IMG/VR virus record: IMGVR_UViG_3300025154_000361 | Coordinates: 1-25,425 of that record | Source: a virus | DNA length: 25,425 nucleotides | Reading direction: 5' to 3' (one strand) | Part shown: piece by piece, positions 3,957-25,105 of the stretch | Layout of the letters: every line of letters starts with the position of its first letter | How positions within the stretch are numbered: the first letter of the stretch is position 1 | The notes under the pieces: generated by a model | The model's input: only the letters and a program-made list of their open reading frames with translations | Databases searched by the model: none | Told to the model about the DNA's origin: nothing | Position numbers and translations under genes: made by a program

Positions 3957-5303
3957 TTAAAGTCCAGTTATTGTTGCGAATTGCATAACGTGATTCTTTT
4001 GAAGTTCCATAAAGCACCTAGACAATGAGTCACACTGATCGTCGTGAGAGCAATTTGGGAATCCTTCAAGTTCCTTAATTAGCTCTTCATTCCATTTTGC
4101 GCGTAACATTTTTACATTGCCAGAATTTAATTGGCTAGCGAATGGCTCAGCCCTTGTTACCTTATCGCCTGATTCTGGGCTTGACGATATTCTGAATCCT
4201 GATAGCTTTCGTGTAAGATGTTGCGCCATGAATTTTCCGGCAGCTCCGGGATCGACGGGCAGTGATTGCAGCACACCCAATCCATCTCTTGTAGCAGTTG
4301 CTAATAAAGTATTTTCAACCTCTTCCGGCATACCACGAAAGCGCACAATATCGCATATCGTATATCTACCTTCGTAATCGACATGCAATAGTGCACCCAC
4401 GCTGAAGTCTGGGTCATTCCCTTTCTTCTCGTCGTAGGCCGTACTTGCGAAATCCCACGCACGGACAAAACGACCGCCAATTGGCATCACATCAACATAA
4501 GACACATTTTTAGTAGTGAACACTCCACCCTCTTTAGCGATGCGAGGCTGCCCCATCCAAATATTTAGATACTTGTCATAGTCCATTTCCTTCATCTTCT
4601 CAGCAAGCATGATTGATGATTCGTCGGCTAGATTATTGTCAACATAATTGACGTGGATAAGCGTTACGTCTGGGTCTGGTGTTAGAACGAATCTACGGTA
4701 CACATAATCGTCAACATTACCTGTATTGAAGCCAATCCATATCTCTGCATCCTTGACACGGATAGTGGGGTCTAACTCATCGAACGTTTCTTCGGCGAGG
4801 TCAACAGCTTCCTCAATCCAGCATATCTTAGTACCTTCCAGTGATTTAATTTCTTTCATGTTGTGCTTCAATCCGCGAAACACAAAGTCAGTACCAGATT
4901 TCCTATGGCGGATTGCATTCACAAGCACATTGAACTCGCCATCAAGGTGCAAGTCTTTTATTCTATTCTCAAGAACAGATAATACGGAGTCTGCAATAGT
5001 TGATTGAATCTGTCGGCAGCAAAGTACGGTTTGTTTTTCTTCCATTGCGCGTAGAATTGCGGCTAGTGCAAATGTCCAGGACTTCGCAGCCGCGCGTCCG
5101 CCATATGCAACATAATACCTCGTCCGCTTATGCCCTCTATCGACGATACGATGCTCTGGAATAAGGTATCCATTTTCGGGATTGATTATCCTGCGCTTGC
5201 TATCGAATGCGCCTTCTACCTCTTTGCCGTTGACTAGGATAATCGGTGCGCGATTTTTGGCAAATAGCGGTAACCAGAGCTTACTCGGCAGTTCTAATTC
5301 CAT
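3957..5303 (-). CDS. terL: Terminase large subunit (packaging ATPase and nuclease)
   Basis: This 448-residue protein is the DNA-packaging motor. The ATPase domain has a Walker A of the GGRAAAKS form at 68-75 and a Walker B with the acidic pair in KICWIEEA near 159-166. The C-terminal RNase H-like nuclease shows RAWDFAST (Asp 284) and the last acidic cluster in HDDQCDSLSR near 420. This layout fits the PBSX-like Terminase_3 group. Length is normal and no frame break is seen, so the nearby HNH gene has not interrupted it. The start ATG overlaps the previous stop (TAATG). Product acts at the portal with TerS. Confidence 0.93.
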   Translation of the reverse strand: MELELPSKLWLPLFAKNRAPIILVNGKEVEGAFDSKRRIINPENGYLIPEHRIVDRGHKRTRYYVAYGGRAAAKSWTFALAAILRAMEEKQTVLCCRQIQSTIADSVLSVLENRIKDLHLDGEFNVLVNAIRHRKSGTDFVFRGLKHNMKEIKSLEGTKICWIEEAVDLAEETFDELDPTIRVKDAEIWIGFNTGNVDDYVYRRFVLTPDPDVTLIHVNYVDNNLADESSIMLAEKMKEMDYDKYLNIWMGQPRIAKEGGVFTTKNVSYVDVMPIGGRFVRAWDFASTAYDEKKGNDPDFSVGALLHVDYEGRYTICDIVRFRGMPEEVENTLLATATRDGLGVLQSLPVDPGAAGKFMAQHLTRKLSGFRISSSPESGDKVTRAEPFASQLNSGNVKMLRAKWNEELIKELEGFPNCSHDDQCDSLSRCFMELQKNHVMQFATITGL

Positions 5304-5497
5304 TAGTTACTCATCATAATTTCAGTGTCAAATATAAAATCATATCTTATGCGAACTATAGTTCTGTCATCGAATTCTATAACAAGAATTGCATCACCAG
5401 CAAAATCATCTTCTGATATTTTAGAGATTGTTTTTCCGGCAAGAATACTATTTAATTCATCAGCCGGAGCGCCACTAAATTCAACGTCACTCATCAT
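5303..5497 (-). CDS. Hypothetical 64-residue protein upstream of terL
   Basis: A short acidic protein (MMSDVEFSGAPADELNSILA...) with alternating hydrophobic residues in its second half (AILVIEFDDRTIVRIRYDFIF), which looks like a beta-hairpin or small beta-sheet. Its start overlaps the upstream stop by ATGA and its stop overlaps the terL start by TAATG, so it is a tightly coupled link in the operon. No family is recognised. Similar small acidic beta proteins are common among phage accessory genes, but no function can be assigned. Confidence 0.7.
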   Translation of the reverse strand: MMSDVEFSGAPADELNSILAGKTISKISEDDFAGDAILVIEFDDRTIVRIRYDFIFDTEIMMSN

Positions 5498-5736
5498 TCT
5501 ATTCTTCCCTCAAGGTCAATCCCGTAAGTCGTCTTAATCTCAAATCTTTCAGGATAGCCTCCCCTGAAATTCTTTTCCTCTGGCGCGTAAATCAATCCAA
5601 GTGGCAGCAAATCGCCTGTATCAGGATCATCAGAATATATCGGCAAGTCACCATGCTCATTTATTAGCTCTTGCAATACCTCAATAAACCTTGATGCTTT
5701 GCAAGTTTTGTCTAATTCAAATTCGTAATAAGACAT
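5494..5736 (-). CDS. Hypothetical 80-residue protein
   Basis: From the ATG at 5736 it reads MSYYEFELDKTCKASRFIEV and continues with LQELINEHGDLPIYSDDPDT. The pattern of an amphipathic helix followed by GDLPIY and an acidic loop is seen in several small phage proteins of unknown role. The start lies just after the dcd stop; a TTG at 5742 overlapping that stop is a less likely start. It overlaps the next gene by ATGA. No enzyme motif or membrane segment is visible. Confidence 0.7.
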   Translation of the reverse strand: MSYYEFELDKTCKASRFIEVLQELINEHGDLPIYSDDPDTGDLLPLGLIYAPEEKNFRGGYPERFEIKTTYGIDLEGRIE

Positions 5737-5738
5737 AA

Positions 5739-6305
5739 TCAAATCTTCGGCAAAGTAACGCCAGTTTGTCCTTGATACTTTCCGCCACGGTCTTTATACG
5801 AAGTCTCGCATACTTCATTCGCCCAGAAAAATAAGAATTGTGCGATACCTTCATTAGCGTATATCTTTGCTGGCAATGGCGTTGTGTTTGAAAGTTCAAG
5901 TGTTACTTGTCCTTCCCACTCCGGTTCTAGTGGCGTTACGTTTACAACCAATCCTATTCTGGCATACGTCGATTTACCCAAGCAAATAGTCAGCACATTA
6001 CGCGGTATCTTGAAATACTCAACTGTCCGTGTAAGCGCAAACGAGTTTGGCGGAATAATACAATAATCGCCTTTCACGTCAACGAAGCATTTTTCGTCAA
6101 AGTTCTTCGGGTCAACTATCGTGCTATTGATATTCGTGAATATCTTGAATTCATCTGAGCAACGAGCATCATATCCATAGCTTGATGTACCATAAGATAC
6201 GATTCGCTTACCATCAACTTCTTTTACTTGGTTTGAACTGAATGGCGAAATCATGTCGTGCTTTTCGACCATCCTACGAATCCAGCTATCAGATTTTATG
6301 CTCAT
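5739..6305 (-). CDS. dcd: dCTP deaminase
   Basis: A 188-residue enzyme of the dCTP deaminase/dUTPase superfamily that converts dCTP to dUTP, feeding dTMP synthesis. Family motifs are clear and in order: SSYGYDARC near 41-49, [11 protein letters not shown] near 109-119, [20 protein letters not shown] near 122-141 with the catalytic glutamate in the VTLEL segment, and [11 protein letters not shown] near the C-terminus. Length matches bacterial Dcd. Whether it also has dUTPase activity cannot be told by eye. It overlaps the DUF3310 gene by 17 bases, and it lies between terS and terL, an unusual place for a nucleotide-metabolism gene. Confidence 0.93.
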
Positions 6306-6531
6306 TTTCTCTCTTTTCTATCTCGCAATTTATATAAAATACTGCTTTTTTCAAATCTTCAATAGCGTTTCCTTTTAGGTCTGCGCGCCATAGATATTTT
6401 TGTGCGCTACCTATGCAAAAGTTCATATGTTTTGCAATCTGTATACATTCTATTGACGCACCGCATGAGCATTTTGCCGGTGAAGATGTATAGTGTTTCG
6501 GATGATTAACATTGTCACTCGTTGGTATCAT
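6289..6531 (-). CDS. DUF3310 phage protein
   Basis: An 80-residue protein with the DUF3310 signature: NHPKHYT near the start, [20 protein letters not shown] in the middle, then [20 protein letters not shown]. The family is widespread in phages, is sometimes annotated as nucleotide-kinase-like, and has no settled function. An extra CSCG pair before the core could bind metal. It overlaps terS by 17 bases at its start and dcd by 17 bases at its end, so it is translationally linked to both. Confidence 0.85.
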
Positions 6532-7093
6532 AAATATCCACGTCAGTTACATTCTCAATCACTTTTTCTTGCACTTTACGCTCCGATAAAAAGTTCAGCT
6601 GGAATACAGGCCTGCTATCTTGGCTCAGCGTAACCTCTTGCGGAATAGACTTCTCGTTGAACTTTACCCTATCTCTCAATCCCGCAATCTTCATGGCATG
6701 TTCAGCCCTAGCCTTTGCGATACCAGCTTGTGCAGCAGTCAATTCTTCGCCCTTTGCAGCCGCTTGTTCGAGGTACATGGCAGCATCATCAGCAAGTGCC
6801 ATCGCGGACGCTTGCATGGCAGGTTCTAGCGCGTCTCTGTGGAAGGCCATCCACTTGATTAGTTGCTCACGCGATAGTCCTAGCTTCTTGGATGTATCGT
6901 CAAGCGTTAATCCGTTCACCAGATAATTCAGTATCGCACCAGCACCTCCGACAGCTTCAATGCGCCTTGCTGAATCTTCACTTGGCGCAATAAGGTTCTT
7001 GATATTCTCGACGCGCAATACCTTCATCGTCTCGTCATCAAGAGCGACTATTTTATTATCGTCAACGATGGCGATTCCTTTTGAATGGTTCAT
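6515..7093 (-). CDS. Probable terminase small subunit
   Basis: The 192-residue protein has a helix-turn-helix-like segment (AILNYLVNGLTLDDTSKKLG followed by LSREQLIKWM, about 52-82), a long alanine-rich helical region (about 90-150, containing AAQAGIAKARAEHAMKIAGL), and a C-terminal tail. This HTH-plus-oligomerisation-helices-plus-tail plan is that of terminase small subunits, which recognise the packaging site and load TerL. The position upstream of terL supports it, though four genes, including dcd, lie between. The start ATG overlaps the stop of the small membrane-protein gene by ATGA. The call is from architecture and context rather than a unique motif. Confidence 0.65.
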   Translation of the reverse strand: MNHSKGIAIVDDNKIVALDDETMKVLRVENIKNLIAPSEDSARRIEAVGGAGAILNYLVNGLTLDDTSKKLGLSREQLIKWMAFHRDALEPAMQASAMALADDAAMYLEQAAAKGEELTAAQAGIAKARAEHAMKIAGLRDRVKFNEKSIPQEVTLSQDSRPVFQLNFLSERKVQEKVIENVTDVDIYDTNE

Positions 7094-10364: not shown

Positions 10365-10760
10365 TCAAGAAGAATCACCAAAAGCATAGTGTATGCACCC
10401 GAACATGAATGCCGTATTCCATCCCCAACTCTCATCAAACTCTATAACTGCTCCATCGTCTGGAATTTCGTTATCATCTATGCTATATCCATATTTGAAT
10501 TTTTTAGAGGAGCAATTACCAATGCGCGGCGAAGACTCAAGCTGTTCCCAGTATTTGCACGTAGAGCATCTCCCTAACACGAAGTTAGCACATTCATCTT
10601 GCACAGGCTGTTCATCAGTTTGGTAAAGGTTAGTGGTATCTGCTATGCACTTTTTGCACACATCAATCGGCTCCACCTTCATTTCAAGGCAATTAGCGCA
10701 TTGTGCATCGCCAGCGCCAAGTGGTTTCAGTTCATCAATCCGCTTCTCTATACCTTTCAT
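10365..10760 (-). CDS. Hypothetical Cys-rich phage protein, 131 residues
   Basis: The chosen start (MKGIEKRIDELKPLGAGDAQ) at 10760 follows AAGGCG. Cysteine pairs CANC, CKKC and CSTCKYW suggest two small zinc sites; the CSTCKYWE...GNCSS segment is a recurring signature of uncharacterised phage and prophage proteins. The C-terminal half is acidic with aromatic residues (DESWGWNTAFMFGCIHYAFG). Its start lies inside the end of the decayed gene upstream. No function known. Confidence 0.7.
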   Translation of the reverse strand: MKGIEKRIDELKPLGAGDAQCANCLEMKVEPIDVCKKCIADTTNLYQTDEQPVQDECANFVLGRCSTCKYWEQLESSPRIGNCSSKKFKYGYSIDDNEIPDDGAVIEFDESWGWNTAFMFGCIHYAFGDSS

Positions 10761-12054: not shown

Positions 12055-12133
12055 AAGCCTTAATCTCATCATGTTTTGAATCCTTCGGGAAGGTGCGCAA
12101 CCACCTAAAGACATGAGCAGATTAAGGCTTTTT
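12055..12133 (+). terminator. Attenuator-like terminator in the PR leader
   Basis: AAGCCTTAATCT (12055-12066) pairs perfectly with AGATTAAGGCTT (12119-12130), followed by TTT (five Ts in all from 12129). The 52-base loop contains CCTT-CGGG-AAGG (12082-12093). A crossing helix, GGTTGCGC (12029-12036) with GCGCAACC (12095-12102), could compete or form a pseudoknot. It would end most PR transcripts after about 110 bases unless antagonised. Confidence 0.6.
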
Positions 12134-15735: not shown

Positions 15736-15764
15736 TTGCATTTATATTTAAGTATGCGTATAGT
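15736..15764 (+). promoter_or_regulatory. Promoter of tnpB
   Basis: TTGCAT (15736-15741), 17-base spacer, TATAGT (15759-15764). The -10 box ends seven bases before the chosen tnpB ATG, so this message may also be leaderless or nearly so. Confidence 0.55.
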
Positions 15765-15771
15765 GTACCAC

Positions 15772-16869
15772 ATGAAATCCAAAACGCAAATTAAAACTTT
15801 GAAAGTTAGAATTAAGGACAAACACGCTGCTATTCTTAATCAATGGGCTTTTGAAGTAAACCAAGTATGGAATGCAGCAAACGAGTTGAGCGCAGATTAT
15901 TCATGGGTTCCTATTCCTGAGGTTGGATATATAAATTGCGGAACATCAGAATATGATTTGCAGAAAGAGCTTAAAACTATTCGAGCAGAACGTAATTTTT
16001 CAATTAGTGCTGTAACTATACAAAGCGTTATTTCTCAACATGCAAAATCTCGCCGTCAATTCAAGAAAAACAAACTTCAATGGAGATGTTCAAGCGGTTC
16101 AAAGCGTTCATTAGGGTGGGTTCCATTTAAGTCTGCTGGCGTTAAATTTATCAATGGTCAAGTACGATTTTGTGGGAAATTATTCAGTATTTGGGATAGT
16201 TATGATTTATCAAAATATGAATTAGGTACTGGTTCATTCTCGCAAGATTCTCGTGGTCGTTGGTATTTTAATACGACAATTAAGGTTGAAATAAAATCGT
16301 CAGAAGGTAAAACATCTGTTGGAATTGATTTAGGTCTTAAAACAATAGCAACTTGTTCTGACGGAACTGTATTTGAACGCAGGCGTATAACAGATGAATT
16401 CGCAAAAGAATTAGCAACAGCACAAGGCGCAAAAAAGAAAAATCGTGTTAGGGCGATACATGCAAAGATTAAAAATACCCGTAGCGATGCCATACATAAA
16501 TTCACTACTACAATGGCTGAAAACTATGGTGCTATTTTTATAGGTGATGTTAGTAGTAAAAAATTGACTAAAACCAAAATGGCAAAGTCAGTATTAGATG
16601 CTGGATGGGGTATGTTAAAGACACAACTGAAATATAAAGCGATAGCGCGGTCAGTTATGTTTGAAGAAATAAATGAAAAGTACACCACCCAGATTTGTTC
16701 GTGTTGCGGAGTAATATCCGGCAATAGTCCGAAAGGTAGAGCAGGTCTTGGAATAAGAGAATGGATTTGTTGTGAATGTGGTGCAATTCACGACCGCGAT
16801 ATAAATGCGGCAAAAAACATTCTCGCGCTCGGGCATGAGCGTCTAGCTGTAGGAATCTCCGTCCTTTAG
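15772..16869 (+). CDS. tnpB: TnpB-family RNA-guided nuclease (IS605 OrfB)
   Basis: From the ATG at 15772 the protein is 365 residues, a normal TnpB length. It has the N-terminal helical/OrfB_IS605 part, the first RuvC motif VGIDLGLKTIATCSDG (Asp186), a middle motif IFIGDVSSKKLTKTKMAKS, a zinc finger CSCCG...CCECG (near 309-336) and the third motif HDRDINAAKNI. TnpB uses an RNA made from the element's right end to cut target DNA. At the place of the usual middle glutamate (E-D-L type motif) there is Asp259 in GDVSS. A large TnpB subgroup shows Asn or Asp here (VSS-type) and may use a different glutamate, so activity is not certain. No ribosome-binding site is seen. Confidence 0.88.
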   Translation: MKSKTQIKTLKVRIKDKHAAILNQWAFEVNQVWNAANELSADYSWVPIPEVGYINCGTSEYDLQKELKTIRAERNFSISAVTIQSVISQHAKSRRQFKKNKLQWRCSSGSKRSLGWVPFKSAGVKFINGQVRFCGKLFSIWDSYDLSKYELGTGSFSQDSRGRWYFNTTIKVEIKSSEGKTSVGIDLGLKTIATCSDGTVFERRRITDEFAKELATAQGAKKKNRVRAIHAKIKNTRSDAIHKFTTTMAENYGAIFIGDVSSKKLTKTKMAKSVLDAGWGMLKTQLKYKAIARSVMFEEINEKYTTQICSCCGVISGNSPKGRAGLGIREWICCECGAIHDRDINAAKNILALGHERLAVGISVL

Positions 16870-16886
16870 GGCAGGAGATGATGTCA
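16730..16886 (+). ncRNA. Likely omega (reRNA) guide-RNA scaffold of the TnpB element
   Basis: By analogy with other TnpB systems, the guide scaffold overlaps the tnpB 3' end and ends at the right-end hairpin. Here CTCC-GTCCTTTAGGGCA-GGAG (about 16858-16877) followed by ATGATGTCAAC fits. The guide would be the sequence directly after about 16887 (beginning ATCGCACC). The 5' limit is a guess; the hairpin is directly visible. Confidence 0.5.
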
Positions 16887-16996
16887 ACATCGCACCACTA
16901 TCACCAAACAAACCCGCTAATCAGCTTCCTGACGCTGATACGGGCTATCTGATAGCAAGTCCGATTATCCAGAAAATTTACATTTTTCAAATCTGA
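16874..16996 (+). other. Open fragment beside the TnpB right end, possible disrupted gene end
   Basis: Read from GGA at 16874 the frame gives GDDVNIAPLSPNKPANQLPD, then ADTGYLIASPIIQKIYIFQI and stop at 16996. It has no start codon; the upstream part would lie inside the element. The protein-like composition hints that the element cut off the front of a phage gene. Evidence is weak: one short open frame. Confidence 0.25.
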
Positions 16997-17021
16997 AATT
17001 CACTCACACCAATTCTCAGTC

Positions 17022-17036
17022 TGTAATCGGATTACA
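17022..17036. promoter_or_regulatory. Palindromic operator copy 7
   Basis: Perfect TGTAATCGGATTACA followed by CTTAG, as at 10055. It lies in the region upstream of the GC-rich small-gene cluster. Confidence 0.82.
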
Positions 17037-17156
17037 CTTAGGGCGATATTCACTTCGCATAATTCGCAAGCATTCAGGCAGGTTACTTCTCACGCAAATT
17101 AAATCGCATACAGGGATAATGACAGGATGATAATATATTAAGCGGGATGTTGGGGA

Positions 17157-17231
17157 GTGGATTTACTGTACGAGTTGGCTTGGGATAACGGGCTGGATCG
17201 ACTGGAGGGGGCAAAAGGTGAACACAATTAA
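17157..17231 (+). CDS. Possible 24-residue micro-protein
   Basis: A GTG start (after GGGATGTTGGGGA) gives MDLLYELAWDNGLDRLEGAK and ends GEHN. It looks like a compact acidic helix. The ribosome-binding site is G-rich but not clean, and there is no coupling to a neighbour, so it is uncertain. Confidence 0.28.
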   Translation: MDLLYELAWDNGLDRLEGAKGEHN

Positions 17232-17455
17232 CAGCTTGCGAGGGGCGCGCCAATAGCATCGAGGGGCGTATAGGTTAGTGCCTGCTAACGTGACGCAATT
17301 TGCGGCACTATTGTGACGAATTTTGTCACTTATCTGCGTTATGTCAAACGTATCGAGCTGCCTATATTTTAGGCAATCGCGCTGTAAGTCAATAGGCGCG
17401 ACATTCTAGCAAATAGTTATGCACAATGGCATGATGTGGCATGGTTACTGCATAC

Positions 17456-18636: not shown

Positions 18637-18861
18637 ATGACTAGAATTTATGAAGGCTATACAGGCAACGGCGAAAATGAGGGCGCGAACGTTACCCGAT
18701 TTTTTAGCAGCTCAGAACAGGCGATAAAATGGGCGCAAAATCAGGTAATCAGCGACCAGGCAACAGTCCTGCAATATGACTATGTCGGGGACATTCTCGA
18801 TGCTCTGGGGAATACAGGCAAAAAGGCAAACTACGGGATCATATACCGGCAAGGATTCTAG
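18637..18861 (+). CDS. Hypothetical 74-residue protein
   Basis: GAAAGG precedes the ATG. The protein starts MTRIYEGYTGNGENEGANVT and has a helix (SSEQAIKWAQNQVISD) followed by a beta segment (ATVLQYDYVGDI). The layout, one helix against a small sheet, is common in small phage proteins such as Gam-like or immunity-type inhibitors, but no match is claimed. An intrinsic terminator follows directly, so this is the last gene of the unit. Confidence 0.65.
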   Translation: MTRIYEGYTGNGENEGANVTRFFSSSEQAIKWAQNQVISDQATVLQYDYVGDILDALGNTGKKANYGIIYRQGF

Positions 18862-18865
18862 CAAT

Positions 18866-18892
18866 AGCCCGTTAGCAGCGGGCTTTTTGTTT
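18866..18892 (+). terminator. Intrinsic terminator after the 18637 gene
   Basis: AGCCCG (18866-18871) pairs with CGGGCT (18879-18884), followed by TTTTTGTTTG. The GC stem and T run are classical. It ends the rightward cluster of small genes that begins at 17506. Confidence 0.85.
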
Positions 18893-19028
18893 GTCCGATA
18901 GGGGCTGATAGCCTAGCAGGCACAATAACGCCTTAAAACGCATCCTGCGGGCAATGGCGGGTAATTAACTGGACTAGCAAGCGGACGGTTTAGCGGATAA
19001 TCACGGCAACAATTCTAAGGGCGGAAAC

Positions 19029-19217
19029 ATGGCAAAGACAATTACCGAAGAAATTACCGGCCAAAAGTACATTCCGGCAGAATTGATTATCGTGGACACC
19101 TTCGCTAAAATTAAAGTTATCGGACAATTCAAAATTAGGGATAAGCTGTATTCTGCCAACCTGAAAAGAGGAAGGTGGACACTGAACGGTAACTATCAAA
19201 TAGTCTACGGAAAGTAA
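19029..19217 (+). CDS. Hypothetical 62-residue basic protein
   Basis: Starts MAKTITEEITGQKYIPAELI after AAGGGCGG. The protein is beta-rich (IIVDTFAKIKVIGQFKIRDK, then SANLKRGRWTLNGNYQIVYG) and basic, with alternating hydrophobic residues as in a small beta-barrel. The start lies in GAAACATGG, close to the AAAACATG motif that becomes frequent from here on. A GATAAT upstream near 18996 may be its -10 box. No family recognised. Confidence 0.62.
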   Translation: MAKTITEEITGQKYIPAELIIVDTFAKIKVIGQFKIRDKLYSANLKRGRWTLNGNYQIVYGK

Positions 19218-19466
19218 ATCAGCAACTATTCAGCATGTACACCGCAACCCGGCAAAACATGGATTCTTCACATCCCAATAGTTAGTACTCACTAACTCAC
19301 CCAAAACATCGAAATCACACCATCCAGCAAAACATCGGATCATCAGGACTCATTGCGGACATAATTGGTTATTATATCTTTAGCCAATGGTAAGGCGTGT
19401 CTACGGCAATCACTTACGCTAAAACATGGAATCAGTGAGCCAAAATACCCGACCAATTTAGTCAAG

Positions 19467-19480
19467 TGTAATTAATTACA
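19467..19480. promoter_or_regulatory. Operator-like palindrome variant
   Basis: TGTAATTAATTACA is a perfect 14-base palindrome with the same outer half-sites as the operator but shorter by one base. It sits 42 bases before operator copy 8. Confidence 0.5.
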
Positions 19481-19508
19481 GTCAGAACAGCTTAAAACAT
19501 GGAAATAC

Positions 19509-19523
19509 TGTAATCGGATTACA
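19509..19523. promoter_or_regulatory. Palindromic operator copy 8
   Basis: Perfect TGTAATCGGATTACA flanked by C and G. It sits among the AAAACATGG repeats, just before the AT-rich inverted repeats. Confidence 0.85.
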
Positions 19524-19549
19524 GATAGTCAACAAAACATGGTAAAACA

Positions 19550-19670
19550 TTGAACAACTGCTTATTATTTAAGCAACACTTAAAGTAATACATTAACTAT
19601 TGCCTAAAAATTAAGCAACTGTTCAATATATTTTAGAGGAAAGTTGAACAACTGCTTAAAAAATAGGCAA
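19550..19670. repeat. Direct and inverted repeats with 27-base arms
   Basis: TTGAACAACTGCTTA occurs at 19550-19564 and 19644-19658. The arm at 19600-19626 (TTGCCTA...CTGTTCAA) and the arm at 19644-19670 (TTGAACAACTG...TAGGCAA) are reverse complements at 21 of 27 positions around a 17-base loop. An inner stem TGCTTA/TAAGCA follows the first direct repeat. Such imperfect cruciforms in AT-rich DNA are typical of origins or regulator sites. Confidence 0.7.
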
Positions 19671-20047
19671 ACAGTATATACCTAAAATATACACTAAAAA
19701 AATAGTTAATAGAATCAAGCACTTAAAAATTCATAATCAATTAGAGAGTTGATTGCATTGGGAAAATTGGCAAAAAATAGAGGATATACTCGTAAAATTC
19801 CACAGCTAACCATTTGATTATCTAGCAAATACTATCTTCTTATACCTTATAGGAAAATAATAATAATAATAAGATAATATATTATGGCTGGTGTGCCGTG
19901 ACTACGGATTTAAAGAGCATAGTGTTAAAAATGCACTTTATGTAATATATTCAAGTGTTTAACTGCGGTTTTGCTTAGGAATTGCCTAGGAATGAATAGG
20001 GGTAAGGCTTTGCGACTAGGTATTATGCAAAATAGTTTATTATTATC

Positions 20048-20075
20048 TTGTATTCTTCGTAGATTATGCTATTAT
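20048..20075 (+). promoter_or_regulatory. Rightward promoter of the small-gene operon
   Basis: TTGTAT (20048-20053), 16-base spacer ending in TGC, TATTAT (20070-20075). The TGn just before the -10 makes it an extended -10 promoter. Start would be near 20082, giving a leader of about 35 bases before the ATG at 20118. Confidence 0.7.
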
Positions 20076-20117
20076 GACTACCTGTTCGGTTGATTAACTT
20101 TTGAAAGGGTAAATAAA

Positions 20118-20399
20118 ATGAGAATTACACAAAAAGACTTGGAAGCTGTTGTTTCACGGATCAATCGTATTTGTGGAACTCCTGCTACTCCGTATTCCAA
20201 AGATGCGGAAGGTAATATTTCGCCAAATGCTAATTGTTATCATTTGGATTATGCCTATAGCTTGGATTATGCCTATAGCGGAGTTCAGACCATTGGCTGT
20301 TCTGGAGTTGGCAATGTTCTAGGAACTGGTCATATTCCGAAGTCTGACTTATACAATCGGATGCAAGCGTTTATCGCTGGTTTGGAGGTGACAAAATGA
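20118..20399 (+). CDS. Conserved-looking phage hypothetical with an internal duplication
   Basis: A 93-residue protein (MRITQKDLEAVVSRINRICG...) with the features of a common phage hypothetical family: an N-terminal helix DLEAVVSRINR, a TPATPYSKD turn, NCYHLDYAYSG, and a C-terminal GHIPKSDLYNRMQAFIAGL. GAAAGGG precedes the start. It contains LDYAYS twice in tandem because of an exact 18-base duplication at 20244-20279. It is the first gene of the rightward operon and overlaps the next by four bases (ATGA). Confidence 0.75.
   Translation: MRITQKDLEAVVSRINRICGTPATPYSKDAEGNISPNANCYHLDYAYSLDYAYSGVQTIGCSGVGNVLGTGHIPKSDLYNRMQAFIAGLEVTK
20244..20279 (+). repeat. Exact 18-base tandem duplication
   Basis: TTGGATTATGCCTATAGC is present twice, head to tail, adding six residues (LDYAYS) in frame. 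Perfect identity implies a recent slippage event. Confidence 0.95.
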
Positions 20400-20650
20400 C
20401 CTTTACTACATATTCAGAAGCCGAAACTGAAGCTGTGAAACTTGGTGCTGTCGATGTTGGCGTATATTCACCTAACTGGGCTTTGCATGGTGCATTCTGC
20501 GCCCACTTCTTCGATGCTGCTGGTCTGGAAGTCGGCTTTTACCATTACGATCTGAACAATCCGCTTCTCGTTCTTGAACCTCGCCGTTCATGGAGTAAAT
20601 CATTCAAGGATGGTTTACAGTTCAGTAAAATTGGAAAGGTGCAAAAATGA
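20396..20650 (+). CDS. Hypothetical 84-residue protein
   Basis: MTFTTYSEAETEAVKLGAVD then VGVYSPNWALHGAFCAHFFD. Acidic N-terminal helix and an aromatic beta-rich middle (LEVGFYHYDLNNPLLVLEPR), ending with a basic tail (SWSKSFKDGLQFSKIGKVQK). Its start overlaps the upstream stop by ATGA, with GGAGG close by (TTTGGAGGTGACAAAATG). No family recognised. Confidence 0.72.
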   Translation: MTFTTYSEAETEAVKLGAVDVGVYSPNWALHGAFCAHFFDAAGLEVGFYHYDLNNPLLVLEPRRSWSKSFKDGLQFSKIGKVQK

Positions 20651-20715
20651 AACGATGTATTCCCTGCACTATCGCCGTTTGGCATGGTTCCCGTTTTATC
20701 TATCGGAAAGGCTGA
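20647..20715 (+). CDS. Micro-protein of 22 residues
   Basis: ATG overlaps the preceding stop, with AAAGG seven bases upstream, and reads MKRCIPCTIAVWHGSRFIYR, ending KG. It has a CxxC pair and is basic. The next gene's ribosome-binding site (GGAAAGG) overlaps its last codons. The coupling argues for translation; the function is unknown. Confidence 0.5.
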   Translation: MKRCIPCTIAVWHGSRFIYRKG

Positions 20716-20718
20716 AAA

Positions 20719-20913
20719 ATGACTCCAGAATATAGAAAACAGATTGCGGAATGCGAGAAGCTATACGCCGAAAATGGCCGCAAAGCATTAAACAATCCCC
20801 ACGGCATGATCAGCAAAACATGCGGGTGCCGTGATTGTTTCTGCTGTGCAGCTTATCACGTGCTGGAAGCCGCTGCAATGCGTGAATATCAAATAAGGAG
20901 CTTGAGAAAATGA
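20719..20913 (+). CDS. Small Cys-rich protein, 64 residues
   Basis: MTPEYRKQIAECEKLYAENG begins a helical protein with a cysteine knot-like patch (SKTCGCRDCFCCAAYHVLEA). The cysteines (five within nine residues) probably bind zinc. GGAAAGG precedes the ATG and the stop overlaps the next start. AAAACATGC (20815-20823) lies within it. Confidence 0.68.
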   Translation: MTPEYRKQIAECEKLYAENGRKALNNPHGMISKTCGCRDCFCCAAYHVLEAAAMREYQIRSLRK

Positions 20914-21518
20914 AAACTAGAAATAAAATCAAGTTTACCGCTGGAATACATGGCTCTAATGGCGTTCCTGATACTTTCGCCATGATCGAAGGCTATCAGC
21001 TAAAACATGGCCTCGCCGTATCTTCCCCGATTGTTGCCGATGAATTCGGACAATGTACCTATAAGCCCGGCTGGATCGTTTACCACGTTGCAACTGGTAG
21101 AACGGTCAAGACTAACTACGGCAAAGGCTACAAGACCCCTTTTGATGCCCTTCTTGCGGCAAAGAATGTAAACGGCTTGTATGCCAAGATTGCCGCCCGT
21201 GATTTTACCGCTGAAATCGAAGCGTTGCCGGTTGCTGAGTGCGTTATGGCCGTAATCGGTAAACTTCGCGCCATGCCTAAGCCAAAGGCGGACAAGGTTC
21301 ATGGCCTGAATCCTGCAAAACATGGCTCACTCATAGCCTTGATCGGTGACATCGACAATGCGCGCCGGGAAGCCTATCGAACCAGCGAACAATTTATGGC
21401 TTTTACCTTTGGCAAAGCTACCTTTAAGGTTGGCGCAAGACTTGAGGCGTTAAACCTGTTCCGCGAACGTGTACTGAAAAACAAGCGCGTCTTTTCTGAT
21501 GCCGCCCTTAACGCTTAA
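20910..21518 (+). CDS. Hypothetical 202-residue protein
   Basis: The largest gene of this operon. It begins MKTRNKIKFTAGIHGSNGVP, contains a beta-rich first half (GWIVYHVATGRTVKTNYGKG), and a helical second half (ALPVAECVMAVIGKLRAMPK). No catalytic motif or zinc site is seen. The ATG overlaps the upstream stop and GGAG precedes it. Two AAAACATGG motifs (21002, 21317) are inside the coding part, encoding parts of LKHG and AKHG. The function is unknown; its length and position are like phage host-takeover proteins. Confidence 0.75.
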   Translation: MKTRNKIKFTAGIHGSNGVPDTFAMIEGYQLKHGLAVSSPIVADEFGQCTYKPGWIVYHVATGRTVKTNYGKGYKTPFDALLAAKNVNGLYAKIAARDFTAEIEALPVAECVMAVIGKLRAMPKPKADKVHGLNPAKHGSLIALIGDIDNARREAYRTSEQFMAFTFGKATFKVGARLEALNLFRERVLKNKRVFSDAALNA

Positions 21519-21537
21519 CTTTTTGGAGACTGAAAAC

Positions 21538-21729
21538 ATGAAAATTGCAGAACAGTTAGCAGAATTGCGGAATGCCCTATTTTTTGGCGCATTCGCACGG
21601 CTTTTGAAGCGCAAAACTAGGTCAACACTGAAACACCAAAAAGGCGGTGCGCTTTATGTTTTTAGCGATGGCTCAACTTATGAACTCGACGCAAAAGAAC
21701 ACGCCGCCAACCTGTCCGGGGGAACGTAA
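21538..21729 (+). CDS. Hypothetical 63-residue protein
   Basis: Begins MKIAEQLAELRNALFFGAFA with GGAGA upstream; the ATG is part of an AAAACATG motif. A helical N-terminus and a basic middle (RLLKRKTRSTLKHQKGGALY) are followed by a beta-hairpin-like VFSDGSTYELD. No family recognised. The gene ends two bases before the next start. Confidence 0.65.
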   Translation: MKIAEQLAELRNALFFGAFARLLKRKTRSTLKHQKGGALYVFSDGSTYELDAKEHAANLSGGT

Positions 21730-21731
21730 TT

Positions 21732-21926
21732 ATGGAAAACACGAAAATCCCAAAAGGCGAGCAAGTGTATTTGTGGATGACCTCGCAAACGCCACAAGCA
21801 ACACAAGCAATGGCGATGGCTCAATTCGGAATGACGCAGACAGGTATCAGCCTCGCACTGAAACGCCACTGTACAAAACATGGCTTGAGCAAGATCGACA
21901 ACCGCAAGAAGGAGATGTCAAAATGA
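21732..21926 (+). CDS. Possible small HTH protein, 64 residues
   Basis: MENTKIPKGEQVYLWMTSQT then PQATQAMAMAQFGMTQTGIS, then LALKRHCTKHGLSKIDNRK. The middle (ATQAMAMAQFGMTQTGISLALKRH) could be a helix-turn-helix in which TQTGISLAL is the recognition helix, making it a candidate regulator. GGGGGAAC precedes the ATG. The stop overlaps the next start by ATGA. Confidence 0.62.
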   Translation: MENTKIPKGEQVYLWMTSQTPQATQAMAMAQFGMTQTGISLALKRHCTKHGLSKIDNRKKEMSK

Positions 21927-22030
21927 CAAGAATTTCAAAATCAGACTATGAAAACATGGGCGGGATGCAATCCGGTAAAGTTACCAGCAAATTTATTTCA
22001 GGCCGCTGGCATTATTATCGGATTGATTGA
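21923..22030 (+). CDS. Hypothetical 35-residue protein
   Basis: Reads MTRISKSDYENMGGMQSGKV then TSKFISGRWHYYRID. The start has GAAGGAG upstream and overlaps the previous stop by ATGA, so it is likely translated. Basic and aromatic, ending with a WHYYRID strand. An AAAACATGG motif lies in codons 10-12. Confidence 0.6.
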   Translation: MTRISKSDYENMGGMQSGKVTSKFISGRWHYYRID

Positions 22031-22046
22031 AAAAGGAGATGATAAA

Positions 22047-22250
22047 ATGAACGCCACACTCGAAAACATGCAGAAAGCGCAACAAGGCGCGGCGATGCTG
22101 GTATCCGACCTGCGCGAATGCCTGAAAACATGCTCGGCGCTAGAAGCCATGCTTATTTTACCGGAAATTGAAAAATCGGCTGATATAGCCAACAAACTAT
22201 CGGCCATGCTTTCAGCAATGAATGAGGGAAGCGAAAACAAGCCCTTTTGA
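22047..22250 (+). CDS. Hypothetical helical 67-residue protein
   Basis: MNATLENMQKAQQGAAMLVS begins an all-helical protein with heptad-like hydrophobic spacing (SALEAMLILPEIEKSADIAN, KLSAMLSAMNEG). AAAAAGGAG precedes the ATG. Two AAAACATGC motifs (22063, 22125) are in its first third. No family recognised; dimerisation through the helices is likely. Confidence 0.65.
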   Translation: MNATLENMQKAQQGAAMLVSDLRECLKTCSALEAMLILPEIEKSADIANKLSAMLSAMNEGSENKPF

Positions 22251-22266
22251 GCCTTCGCAACCTATC

Positions 22267-22286
22267 GGATAGCCTTCGGGTTATCC
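22267..22286 (+). other. UUCG-capped hairpin between small genes
   Basis: GGATAGCC-TTCG-GGTTATCC: eight pairs with one G-T wobble and a C(UUCG)G tetraloop, which is unusually stable as RNA. No T run follows, so it is not a simple terminator; it may protect or process the polycistronic message in the 110-base gap before the gene at 22361. Confidence 0.6.
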
Positions 22287-22360
22287 ATAGCACTAAAACA
22301 CGCTCAAAACGCATCCTAGCGCGTTTGGGTGAATTCCAACTAACTAATGAGGGAAATAAA

Positions 22361-22636
22361 ATGGAAAAGTACATTCTAAAAACAGTAAACGAAAACGGGA
22401 TTGAGCAAATCCGCACGTTCTTGGCGGAGAATCATATTATTTGCAAGAATGGCGGCGTAGATTACTTCACGCATGACAATCTTCTAGCTTGGGCAGAAGA
22501 GGCAGAATTCAGCCTTTCGGAAGGCAATAATGCAGGAATTGAGCTTCGCGCATTCGAGTCAATACATGGCCGGACGCAGACTTTCACGATCAGCGATGCC
22601 GGGCTGGACTGCGAAGAAATCGAATTGGAGGAATGA
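22361..22636 (+). CDS. Hypothetical 91-residue protein
   Basis: MEKYILKTVNENGIEQIRTF followed by LAENHIICKNGGVDYFTHDN. Acidic, mixed alpha/beta, with a C-terminal acidic tail (GLDCEEIELEE). GAGGG precedes the ATG. It is first after a 110-base gap holding a stable hairpin. No family recognised; the pattern (LAENHIICKNG...LLAWAEEAEFSL) could be a host-inhibitor type small protein. Confidence 0.7.
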   Translation: MEKYILKTVNENGIEQIRTFLAENHIICKNGGVDYFTHDNLLAWAEEAEFSLSEGNNAGIELRAFESIHGRTQTFTISDAGLDCEEIELEE

Positions 22637-22640
22637 AAAC

Positions 22641-22934
22641 ATGCCAAACTTAATCAAACTATACACGCGACACGGCGCAATCTGGGTGGATACCGCCGAA
22701 TTATCAGCACGAGGAAACATGCCGCAAGGTCGTTGCCTGCATATTTATACTTCGCACGGCAATCGGATAGTGGATACCGAAGCATGGCATAAGGCAAGCT
22801 CTAAAACACGCCCTAGCGGGATCGTGCATCCTGCTAACCTATTCGCCACGCCGGAACTAGCCAAAGCCGATAGCGATAGAATCTACGCGGATATAGCGCA
22901 TCTGGCAATCATGGAATCTGTGCGGCCAATTTAA
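22641..22934 (+). CDS. Hypothetical 97-residue protein
   Basis: Starts MPNLIKLYTRHGAIWVDTAE; the ATG is in an AAAACATG motif with GGAGG nine bases upstream. Two similar strands with an H-G turn (YTRHGAIWVDTAELS and YTSHGNRIVDTEAWH) point to an internal duplication of about 30 residues, perhaps two copies of a small beta-unit. The C-terminus is helical. No known family. Confidence 0.7.
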   Translation: MPNLIKLYTRHGAIWVDTAELSARGNMPQGRCLHIYTSHGNRIVDTEAWHKASSKTRPSGIVHPANLFATPELAKADSDRIYADIAHLAIMESVRPI

Positions 22935-22950
22935 CTAATGAGATGAAAAC

Positions 22951-23250
22951 ATGAAAACTACACTATGCTGGAACTGCAAGACAGCTTATTCAATCGAAGC
23001 TGAAAAATGCCAAAGTTGTAGCGCGACTAATGCAAACTTCGATCTTGCACAAGCGCAAATTAAAATCAGCGAAAACGAATCGCTGGACGCTGAAAACACG
23101 AAACTTCTGTACCTTCTTCGCGGCGCGCGTGATGCCATGCGGAAAGCATTGCCATTTTGTCCGCCTGATAAGGAAGCGCATTATATCGGTGAATGGCTGG
23201 ACGAACTAAACGAAGAGTTGGCAAAACACGAAAATCTCGCAGTCAAATAA
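22951..23250 (+). CDS. Zinc-ribbon plus helical protein, 99 residues
   Basis: MKTTLCWNCKTAYSIEAEKC QSC form a CxxC...CxxC zinc ribbon in the first 25 residues. It is followed by helices (LDAENTKLLYLLRGARDAMR and GEWLDELNEELAKHEN). The start ATG is in an AAAACATG motif. The ribbon suggests contact with nucleic acid or RNA polymerase; this is inference from fold type only. Confidence 0.68.
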   Translation: MKTTLCWNCKTAYSIEAEKCQSCSATNANFDLAQAQIKISENESLDAENTKLLYLLRGARDAMRKALPFCPPDKEAHYIGEWLDELNEELAKHENLAVK

Positions 23251-23265
23251 TCGGGAGGTAAAAAC

Positions 23266-23457
23266 ATGCGAAACATAACCGACAAACCATTAGCTGATTC
23301 TGGATTGACTAGCTACCGTTGCAAGGGTGCATTCGGCTGGATAATGATAGGCGCGAAAGATAACGAGGATGCTATGCGCGAGGCTTTGCGTAGCTCAAAA
23401 CATGCCGAACGTGAGAGCTTGCAAGCGTGGAACGGTAAAGAATACGCTCCATGCTAA
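23266..23457 (+). CDS. Conserved-looking phage protein, 63 residues
   Basis: MRNITDKPLADSGLTSYRCK followed by GAFGWIMIGAKDNEDAMREA, then LRSSKHAERESLQAWNGKEY. The pattern TSYRxKGxFGWIMIGAxDxxDAxREAxRS...L..WNG.. is familiar from small phage proteins of unknown function. GGGAGG precedes the ATG, which is in an AAAACATGC motif. Another AAAACATGC is inside. Confidence 0.75.
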   Translation: MRNITDKPLADSGLTSYRCKGAFGWIMIGAKDNEDAMREALRSSKHAERESLQAWNGKEYAPC

Positions 23458-23497
23458 AACATGCGAATTGCGCCACTAAATAACGAAAGGTGAAAGC

Positions 23498-23704
23498 ATG
23501 AATAACTGGAATCCAATTTCAACAGCACCTAAAGACGGAACTATCATAAGGCTGCGTGATGAAAAGCGCATGTATAACTGCGTTATGGCTTGGGATAAGA
23601 AGCGCAAGCTATGGACTGGAATGGCATACGGAATGATGGGAGCATCGAAAACGTATTGGGACGAAGAGTTTTGTCCGATATTCGAGTGGCAGCATGTATT
23701 TTAA
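23498..23704 (+). CDS. DUF551-like protein, 68 residues
   Basis: Starts MNNWNPISTAPKDGTIIRLR; the W-x-PI-x-TAPKDG signature and later tryptophans (KLWTGMAY, TYWDEEFCPIFEW) fit DUF551-like phage and plasmid proteins of unknown function. GAAAGG precedes the ATG. Its stop TAA is directly followed by the stop of the convergent helicase gene, with no space for a terminator. Confidence 0.78.
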   Translation: MNNWNPISTAPKDGTIIRLRDEKRMYNCVMAWDKKRKLWTGMAYGMMGASKTYWDEEFCPIFEWQHVF

Positions 23705-25105
23705 TCACGCCGCCTTTTCGTCGCTCCTGATTTTTTGCAGTATCCGGTCATTGTATTTGTGATCTCCTTGCGCCCGTAGATAGTGCTGCGTTATATCGGC
23801 ATTATCTTTGAGCTGCAACGCTGGATGACCACGGCGTAGATATAATTTTGGATTGCCAAACCCTAGATAACCTTCCTCGAAGCGAACATGAACTCTGCCA
23901 TTATTGTTATACAAAAAAGGATGCTCTACATATCCAATGCTCTGTATCAGGTCAAGCCGCTTGCGGTAATTTTGCCTGATTTTGTTAGCCTTCATCCAGC
24001 GTTCGATTGCGCGGTTAGAAAGCCATCCACCACGGAATCCCCATTGGCCTTCCTCGATAGCGTCCATAATCGCTTGCTCTTCTTCAGTGCGACAAGTGAA
24101 AATGGCTTCCCTAGTTGAACTTGTAATCGGTGCGCGGACGCAATCCTTCGCCGGATTAAGCGCGTCTATCAGCGGATAAGTATGCAGATAATCATTCACA
24201 ATCGCATAGCCACCATCGCGCAGCCAGTCCCAAAGGCGCGGAAAGTAGTTGCCGGTCATGCCGTCCCGTTGAAGGTCGCCCATGTATTGTTGCGCCGTGT
24301 AGAAAATCGCATATCGTCTATCAGTCGCAGTCTTTCCGATAGCATCTTTATAGTTGGTGCAAAACATGAAATTTGCGCGATTTTCTACGGTAATCTGGTC
24401 AATTCCCTTTTTCTGGGATTCGATGATGGTGTTCGTAATCATGGGTTTCAAAACATCCAAAACACTTCTATCGCCACCCAGATAAACTTCCTCCATGCCG
24501 ATTAAAAGCCGGTTCTGAATCCACCCGCTGAACTTACCACCGCTCTTGGCGAAGTCTGAAACATTGGGAGTATGGACGTATTTTTGCCCGATGCACTGGA
24601 CTAAACATGCGATTAACATGGACTTCCCGTTACCCTCGATGCCCTGCAAAACAGGAGACCATTGAAACTTCTTTCCTTGATTCTGAACCAGTGCAGCCAT
24701 CCAATGAATCAGAATATCGCGGTCAGTCTGATCTGGAAGCATCTTCTCAATATGCTCGATAAACGGCTTAGGGTCGCCTTTAGCGCGCTTAGTCGTTATA
24801 GGCCACCATGAGTTAGCCAATAGAATACCGTTCTCGTCTATGACGCTACACGGCTCACATTCAGGACGGAAGCATAAAGAATCAGCGCGAGGGAATTTGA
24901 TAGCCTGCGACTTTGTAAAACAGTTCCAAGCGGAATCAGTTGTTTTTGTGCCGTCTTTATTCAGGTCGAATATATACCCGCCGAACGAAGCATCAAATTG
25001 ACCTTGAGCCAGCATAGTTCCGCCTTGAACAAGGATTTTGTGCGAATCTCGGACGTAAACACATCCTTTGAAAACTTCATGTTGGTCTGACGGTTTTAGG
25101 TGCAT
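23705..25105 (-). CDS. SF3 superfamily replicative helicase (DUF5906-type)
   Basis: A 466-residue protein with a superfamily 3 helicase core: Walker A GIEGNGKS (155-162), Walker B LLIGMEEV (200-207), motif C NFMFCTN (245-251) followed by DRRYAIF (262-268, arginine finger region). The C-terminal winged-helix-like part (RTEEEQAIMDAIEEGQWGF on) resembles DUF5906 phage and plasmid replication helicases, related to D5-type primase-helicases. No primase domain is visible in the N-terminal 110 residues. It unwinds DNA at the phage origin. The start at 25105 overlaps the upstream gene by ten bases. It is read leftward toward the rightward small-gene operon. Confidence 0.87.
   Translation of the reverse strand: MHLKPSDQHEVFKGCVYVRDSHKILVQGGTMLAQGQFDASFGGYIFDLNKDGTKTTDSAWNCFTKSQAIKFPRADSLCFRPECEPCSVIDENGILLANSWWPITTKRAKGDPKPFIEHIEKMLPDQTDRDILIHWMAALVQNQGKKFQWSPVLQGIEGNGKSMLIACLVQCIGQKYVHTPNVSDFAKSGGKFSGWIQNRLLIGMEEVYLGGDRSVLDVLKPMITNTIIESQKKGIDQITVENRANFMFCTNYKDAIGKTATDRRYAIFYTAQQYMGDLQRDGMTGNYFPRLWDWLRDGGYAIVNDYLHTYPLIDALNPAKDCVRAPITSSTREAIFTCRTEEEQAIMDAIEEGQWGFRGGWLSNRAIERWMKANKIRQNYRKRLDLIQSIGYVEHPFLYNNNGRVHVRFEEGYLGFGNPKLYLRRGHPALQLKDNADITQHYLRAQGDHKYNDRILQKIRSDEKAA

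Follow-up and report, generated by a model that had tools for sequence, protein, structure and literature searches.

A one-strand array of the word AAAACAYG in a small-gene phage operon and its possible role as stoperator-like binding sites

The stretch analysed here (the window; 25,425 bases of the IMG/VR virus record IMGVR_UViG_3300025154_000361) is a fragment of a tailed phage. Its left half carries genes for a portal protein, a large terminase and a dCTP deaminase on the minus strand, and its middle encodes methyltransferases and a TnpB-like protein. To the right lies an operon of small open reading frames (ORFs) that runs head-on into the gene for part of a primase, and it is in and around this operon that a short word, AAAACAYG, is repeated on the plus strand alone. 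The features that frame the array are as follows.

19553..19680, no strand assigned: A+T-rich non-coding block with three diverged repeats of about 32 nucleotides (nt) (TTGAACAACTGCTTA-like; repeat family D1), word-free
20118..23704, plus strand: operon of about 13 small ORFs, holding most of the words; its final ORF abuts the convergent primase gene with zero gap
23705..25105, minus strand: DUF5906 helicase part, 466 amino acids (aa), of an NrS-1-type primase-polymerase (PF19263, E 2.2e-18)

The primase ORF also matches the C-terminal structures of the NrS-1 polymerase (6k9c/6lrb, E 2.3e-7), and the window does not contain the prim-pol/HBD half of the enzyme. By its appearance only, the A+T-rich block is origin- or operator-like. 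The window holds no Rfam family and no tRNA gene, and no phage in GenBank matches the stretch 19200-20120. The individual copies of the word and of its near variant AAAACATC are given below; YR marks a pyrimidine-purine step at offset 15-16 from the first A of the word, and L004 is a close relative described further on.

19254..19261, plus: AAAACATG, intergenic; YR; kept in L004
19303..19310, plus: variant AAAACATC, intergenic; YR
19329..19336, plus: variant AAAACATC, intergenic; L004 carries AAAACATG at about the same place
19421..19428, plus: AAAACATG, intergenic; YR; the L004 form is AAAACACG
19494..19501, plus: AAAACATG, intergenic; YR
19534..19541, plus: AAAACATG, intergenic; no YR; lost in L004
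20815..20822, plus: AAAACATG, in ORF 20719-20913; YR; kept in L004
21002..21009, plus: AAAACATG, in ORF 20910-21518; YR; CAAACATG in L004 through a synonymous change
21317..21324, plus: AAAACATG, in ORF 20910-21518; YR; AAAATATG in L004
21533..21540, plus: AAAACATG, start codon ATG 21538; YR; window and L004 diverge directly after it
21736..21743, plus: AAAACACG, in ORF 21732-21926; YR; lost in L004
21875..21882, plus: AAAACATG, in ORF 21732-21926; YR; kept in L004
21951..21958, plus: AAAACATG, in ORF 21923-22030, which L004 lacks; YR
22063..22070, plus: AAAACATG, in ORF 22047-22250; YR; kept in L004
22125..22132, plus: AAAACATG, in ORF 22047-22250; no YR; kept in L004
22295..22302, plus: AAAACACG, intergenic; YR; kept in L004
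22636..22643, plus: AAAACATG, start codon ATG 22641; YR; kept in L004, flanks changed
22803..22810, plus: AAAACACG, in ORF 22641-22934; no YR; kept in L004
22946..22953, plus: AAAACATG, start codon ATG 22951; YR; not in L004
23093..23100, plus: AAAACACG, in ORF 22951-23250; YR
23223..23230, plus: AAAACACG, in ORF 22951-23250; YR
23261..23268, plus: AAAACATG, start codon ATG 23266; YR
23397..23404, plus: AAAACATG, in ORF 23266-23457; YR
23456..23463, plus: AAAACATG, spans the stop codon of ORF 23266-23457; YR
24361..24368, plus: AAAACATG, antisense in the primase gene; YR; kept in L004

Over the whole window AAAACATG occurs 18 times on the plus strand and once on the minus strand, at 12070; shuffling the whole window gave, on both strands together, a mean of 2.19 (standard deviation 1.54) and at most 7 among 100 shuffles. 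Seventeen of the plus-strand copies lie inside 18861-23705, where 0.39 (order-1) to 0.47 (order-2) would be expected on one strand, and the eighteenth lies at 24361. A preliminary description of this DNA had placed about 18 copies in 19254-23464 against roughly 0.1 expected. That interval holds 17 and the expectation was set a little low, but the repetition on one strand stands, each of the 17 positions it listed is an exact AAAACATG on the plus strand, and the excess itself is beyond doubt. Near variants add further copies, as it had noted, with AAAACACG found five times and AAAACATC twice, all on the plus strand in the word-bearing region. When T or C is allowed at the seventh base, AAAACAYG occurs 23 times on the plus strand and never on the minus strand of 18861-24400, whereas 500 order-2 simulations average 0.69 copies and never exceed 4. 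The uniform density on both strands that had been named as the contrary case is not seen, the left 18.86 kb holding no plus-strand copy and a single minus-strand one. The copies are also unevenly spread, with none from 19542 to 20814, a gap that spans the A+T-rich block and the first two ORFs.

The close relative L004 (G001, contig IMGVR_UViG_3300025030_000403) covers the word region and matches the window in pieces that are 75-99% identical. Its whole 24.6 kb contains 18 copies of AAAACAYG on the strand corresponding to that of the window and none on the other. Among 14 alignable copies 10 are kept, against 5.6 expected from other words at matched local identity (P 0.016); in a stricter test that required long ungapped flanks, five of seven judgeable copies are kept against 3.2 (P 0.17). 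The kept forms include exchanges of ATG and ACG, as at 19421, and seven L004 copies stand in contexts unlike any copy in the window, several of them in genes with no orthologue there. Loss of intragenic copies from conserved proteins had been put forward as an argument against function. The number kept in L004, a relative 80-90% identical to the window, leans the other way in the first of these tests and less clearly in the stricter one, and the copy at 21002 was indeed lost by a synonymous change with the protein retained. The A+T-rich block is nearly unchanged in L004, with about 3 differences across the first ~120 base pairs (bp) of the alignment. Sixteen other contigs found through the terminase carry at most one word each, and those that could be placed by DNA matches stop short of the operon; scans of genome contigs for a prophage or host revealed no relative. 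For three relatives (L010, L012 and L014) the match to the terminase does not begin before residue 69; the open frame that precedes it ends in THN with S next, as an intein would.

Two more distant phages extend the comparison. G018 (51 kb, 61.7% GC) has a terminase 51% and a portal protein 45% identical to those of the window, and carries five words on the plus strand and none on the minus strand. Four of them fall in 4806-6541, where an operon of small genes ends facing a convergent, full-length DUF5906 primase gene, and the last is antisense in that gene; since three of these four are start codons, G018 taken alone is weak evidence. Its primase contains the NrS-1 HBD domain (PF22763, E 5e-18) and matches the N-terminal structures 6k9a/7rr3/6a9w at E about 1e-16. 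G022 (IMGVR_UViG_3300035182_000761; 34 kb, 57% GC in the fetched part) has a primase whose N-terminal domain is 74% identical to that of G018. Thirteen words, all in 3.4 kb and including two AAAACATG copies antisense within the primase gene, lie opposite that gene's strand; outside this stretch a single word stands on the other strand. Simulation with an order-4 model that is trained on the segment and learns the word itself reaches 6 in G018 and 13 in G022, and falls short of the counts in the window and L004.

In all four phages, then, the words lie opposite the primase-gene strand, in a convergent small-gene operon running into the 3' end of the primase gene. The word-bearing stretch consists of this operon plus 0.1-0.7 kb of the primase gene; as the ends of the ORF and the primase gene abut or overlap, transcription could not avoid this overrun. 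The words thus stop where the operon transcript must end, an arrangement that suits a role linked to transcription and would also fit a signal in the RNA. As side observations, the word-bearing operon of G018 includes a 74-bp direct repeat, 97% identical (L093 5342-5415 and 5958-6031), and the helicase gene of G022 (L105 580-3240) has internal HINT/intein domains.

The position of the words relative to genes was correctly given in the preliminary description. Four copies provide start codons, and the remaining 19 of the 23 lie within genes in varied frames, between genes, or antisense in the primase gene (24361). Start codons account for 4 of the window's 18 AAAACATG copies, counting that at 24361, for 6 of 11 in G022 and for 3 of 4 in G018. 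Within the 13 ORFs of the window AAAACAYG occurs 12 times on the plus strand and never on the minus strand, while synonymous-codon shuffles average 2.6 and none of 3000 reaches 12. The same holds in G022, where eight ORFs contain 8 words against 1.4 in synonymous shuffles, with none of 3000 reaching 8. The ACG form AAAACACG, which contains no start codon, is itself enriched in the window genes (4 versus 0.87 in shuffles, P 0.007). This excess in two phages bears out the earlier view that neither ribosome binding alone nor codon usage accounts for the word: AAAACAYG goes beyond a start-codon context, is no codon effect and is not spread genome-wide. It is very likely a functional, polar element limited to the operon, and probably a real signal read by some viral protein.

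A second element lies beyond the word. The base preceding it is A only once among the 23 window copies and the base following it is never T, and 20 of the 23 have the YR step at offset 15-16. In control words of the window and L004 this step is found in 2 of 12 AAAACAR, 2 of 21 AAAAC not followed by A, and 27 of 72 other CATG words. As the step was first noticed in the window copies, it was tested on copies elsewhere, and was present in 14 of 24 (G022 7/13, G018 3/4, non-homologous L004 copies 4/7). Among offsets 8-21 in these 24 independent copies, offset 15 gives the most YR steps, the other offsets giving 1-8. The element is best written AAAACAYG-N7-YR, its YR part being moderately supported.

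We tentatively favour the possibility that AAAACAYG-N7-YR acts as a stoperator-like array of binding sites. It would be an asymmetric recognition element set in a single orientation along one early operon transcribed rightward (19.2-24.4 kb), and also over the part of the convergent primase gene into which the operon transcript must run. A phage-encoded DNA-binding protein would read two neighbouring turns of the helix, contacting the A-tract and CAYG in one and the YR step, some ten base pairs further, in the next. Occupying many sites in the orientation met by RNA polymerase, it might silence or pace elongation through the operon in the manner of L5-type repressors. We infer that a protein reads the word as DNA, that it targets transcription and that the phage encodes it; the spacing of CAYG and YR, about one helical turn, would fit two contacts.

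The model for this reading is the L5-type stoperator of cluster A mycobacteriophages. According to those parts of PMC9283540 used here, L5-type repressors are monomers with two DNA-binding domains that recognize asymmetric sites, and L5 has 26 such sites whose orientation follows transcription and which fail when reversed. The array resembles this system in its short asymmetric sites, in their number (more than 20) and in an orientation tied to transcription, the strand bias within the one operon being 23/0 in the window, 18/0 in L004, 13/0 in the G022 segment and, more weakly, 4/0 in G018; a single phage-encoded reader touching two parts of the site is proposed here by analogy (PMC9283540, in part). 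L5 stoperators differ in being genome-wide, mostly between genes and served by a known repressor, whereas the present sites are confined to one operon and lie mostly within genes (same source, same parts).

The candidate for the reader is encoded in the operon itself.

21732..21926, plus strand: 64-aa protein with a predicted helix-turn-helix (HTH)-like three-helix fold; L004 has a homologue at 80% identity, G022 a weak match

The structural model of this protein, built from three sequences, has a mean predicted local distance difference test (pLDDT) score of 78.5, and VIA-align gives Z at most 6.3. All of its Foldseek matches are weak (E above 0.6), although HTH or winged-helix domains that bind DNA make up most of them. 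KorA/TrfB may be a relative of the protein, but neither Pfam nor NCBIfam nor a profile search against solved structures was informative. The predicted fold makes the protein only a candidate reader of the word.

Several observations weigh against a stoperator-like array. No repressor, integrase or lysogeny is in evidence for the phage of the window, half of whose genome is missing here, and where an L5-type array has a two-domain monomeric repressor only the 64-aa HTH-like protein was found. Most window copies lie in ORFs, while stoperators occupy promoter regions and short intergenic spaces in the portions of PMC9283540 drawn on. The first two ORFs of the operon (20118-20650) are free of words, and seven, variants counted, stand ahead of the operon, upstream of 20118. 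The frequency of YR in the independent copies, compared with CAYG control words (52 of 139 with YR), reaches only P 0.03. A lone 64-aa HTH protein is small for a 17-bp asymmetric site, its window and G022 forms resemble each other only thinly (35% over 37 aa), and it was not found in G018. The L5 stoperator consensus is the 13-bp GGTGG-TGTCAAG; AAAACAYG-N7-YR is unlike it, and we therefore do not file the array as a member of the L5 type. A polar, short and mostly intragenic word kept over phages of 42 to 62% G+C points to a phage factor whose recognition sequence is new; if it acts on transcription, this would be a second, unrelated stoperator-like design.

The alternative that survives best, though we consider it rather unlikely, is that the NrS-1-type primase-polymerase begins DNA strands de novo at the words. 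It would read the template 5'-CRTGTTTT-3' and initiate on the YR purine, 9 nt beyond the word, the array being a one-strand initiation zone. The idea, a primase signal having also been named in the preliminary description, is attractive because an 8-nt template sequence directs initiation by the NrS-1 enzyme. The helicase half of an enzyme of this kind is encoded in the window, and the full-length form with the NrS-1 HBD domain in G018; the array flanks the A+T-rich repeat block, and copies extend antisense into the primase gene. Initiation sites typically show a fixed YR, as the array does. The NrS-1 polymerase requires an 8-nt template sequence and also reads GTG, so that the size of the word fits, and both sites are T-rich on the template and strand-specific, with a related enzyme adjoining the array here (PMC8718748, PMC7102993, in the parts considered). 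The NrS-1 template word is TTTGGTTA or GTG; the ACG form, 5 of 23 copies, gives CRTGTTTT that GTG and speaks for this reading, and the remaining copies lack it. Against the reading, in the same parts of PMC8718748 and PMC7102993, the NrS-1 polymerase starts mainly at the base adjoining its site and leaves only a trace nine bases away.

The word also does not accompany the enzyme family. A scan with the primase N-terminal domain matched 356 viral relatives, and 78 of the best 80, which were analysed, have no cluster; the two loci that do are each other's closest relatives. A tree of DUF5906 separates the window protein from those of G018 and G022, on a long branch of unsure placement. The sites are absent from the other 18.9 kb of the window, the enzyme half that would read them is not encoded in it, and the words end where the operon transcript must end. 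Some two dozen 8-nt start sites of de novo DNA synthesis within coding genes, each with a YR initiator nine nt on and together forming a strand-specific initiation zone for a divergent NrS-1-type primase-polymerase, seem quite unlikely. If the words did start DNA synthesis, they would reveal where primases of the archaeo-eukaryotic primase (AEP) type begin in a phage genome; to our knowledge such start sites are known for purified enzymes and none has been seen for a genome. Under either this or the stoperator-like reading, the word with its YR step is a ready test sequence.

It is also unlikely that the word acts in RNA, where an RNA-binding protein, nuclease or antitermination factor of phage or host would read AAAACAYG on the early transcript and the start-codon copies may also adjust translation. 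The orientation of the word always matches the operon transcript, and start codons are strongly over-represented among AAAACATG copies; copies at start sites are, however, the cheapest to evolve whatever the function, because the start codon already provides the ATG. No shared RNA structure was found at the copies, the A-tract being unpaired at 0.83-0.91 against 0.74-0.87 for other AAAA runs, and a YR preference 8 nt beyond an 8-nt word has no obvious meaning in RNA. Among known signals acting during transcription, the sigma70-dependent pause element of lambdoid phages is likewise a hexamer on the transcribed strand with a pause about 10 nt on, yet it is -10-like (TATAAT) and near a promoter (PMC7876045, PMC4604602, as far as used here). 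We rejected it since the distance fits and the sequence fails, AAACAT agreeing at 3 of 6 bases and the ACG form at 2 of 6, with the invariant C and G unexplained by a TATAAT-like element.

That the word is a start-associated translation sequence only, its intragenic and ACG copies being due to chance, is very unlikely. Start-site copies occur in every phage examined closely, and the same context is found at gene starts of unrelated phages (Susan, B2). Yet 19 of the 23 window copies lie off starts, the ACG form is enriched, and the excess within genes of two phages already contradicts this explanation, unless the synonymous shuffles overlooked a coding constraint. The likeness to the start-associated sequences of cluster K mycobacteriophages, raised in the preliminary description, is not close. 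In the sections of PMC3203893 used here, those sequences are short non-palindromic words of nearly all one orientation, in the non-structural half of the genome and common to genes of different families, and in these respects they resemble the array; they are, though, 13 bp long with the consensus GGGATAGGAGCCC, and nearly every one precedes a start codon by 3-7 bp, whereas AAAACAYG overlaps the start codon, and so contains its ATG, at 4 of 23 sites. Highly improbable, finally, are short boundary sequences seeding recombination and swaps of small genes, a signal the preliminary description had allowed for: 7 of 14 break points in window-L004 homology have a word no more than 13 bp away (rotation P 0.003), but with the start-codon copies omitted there are 3 against 1.9 expected (P 0.28), and the effect is thus that of genes swapping at gene starts.

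Wider scans brought few further carriers. A search of viral contigs for dense AAAACAYG (three words together) returned 51 stretches, judged by spacing and, for ten of them, also by flanks; one was an already known relative (L066), and almost all others were tandem repeats or weak. When other one-strand words were sought by the same primase at the 80 loci, the high scores were mostly tandem repeats, and once unlike flanks were required only AAAACATG in L105 stood out convincingly. The common words in Scuro, MEW1 and SppYZU01 form no comparable cluster, and HMSP1-Susan was rejected as a carrier, its AAAACATG count being 3/0 with at least two of the copies ordinary gene starts. The open-access literature yielded no phage paper with AAAACATG and none on one-strand intragenic motifs, from which we do not claim absence from print. 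In G021, whose terminase is very distant, 600 bp (16768-17371, L185) hold three AAAACAYG on the plus strand and one on the other.

Elsewhere in the window, the TnpB-like gene at 15736-16869 has OrfB_IS605 and Cas12f1-like_TNB domains, and a strong hairpin resembling an intrinsic terminator (18866-18884, plus strand) lies upstream of the word-bearing segment. A 15-bp palindrome, TGTAATCGGATTACA, has ten copies in the window and six in L004.

TGTAATCGGATTACA in the window: 9914, 10055, 10272, 10310, 11898, 11936, 13103 (one-base variant), 17022, 19509, 25321

Two of the L004 copies, at 10623 and 10889, bracket about 270 bp that are absent beside the window copy at 25321, and the palindrome thus looks like an operator or a cassette boundary.

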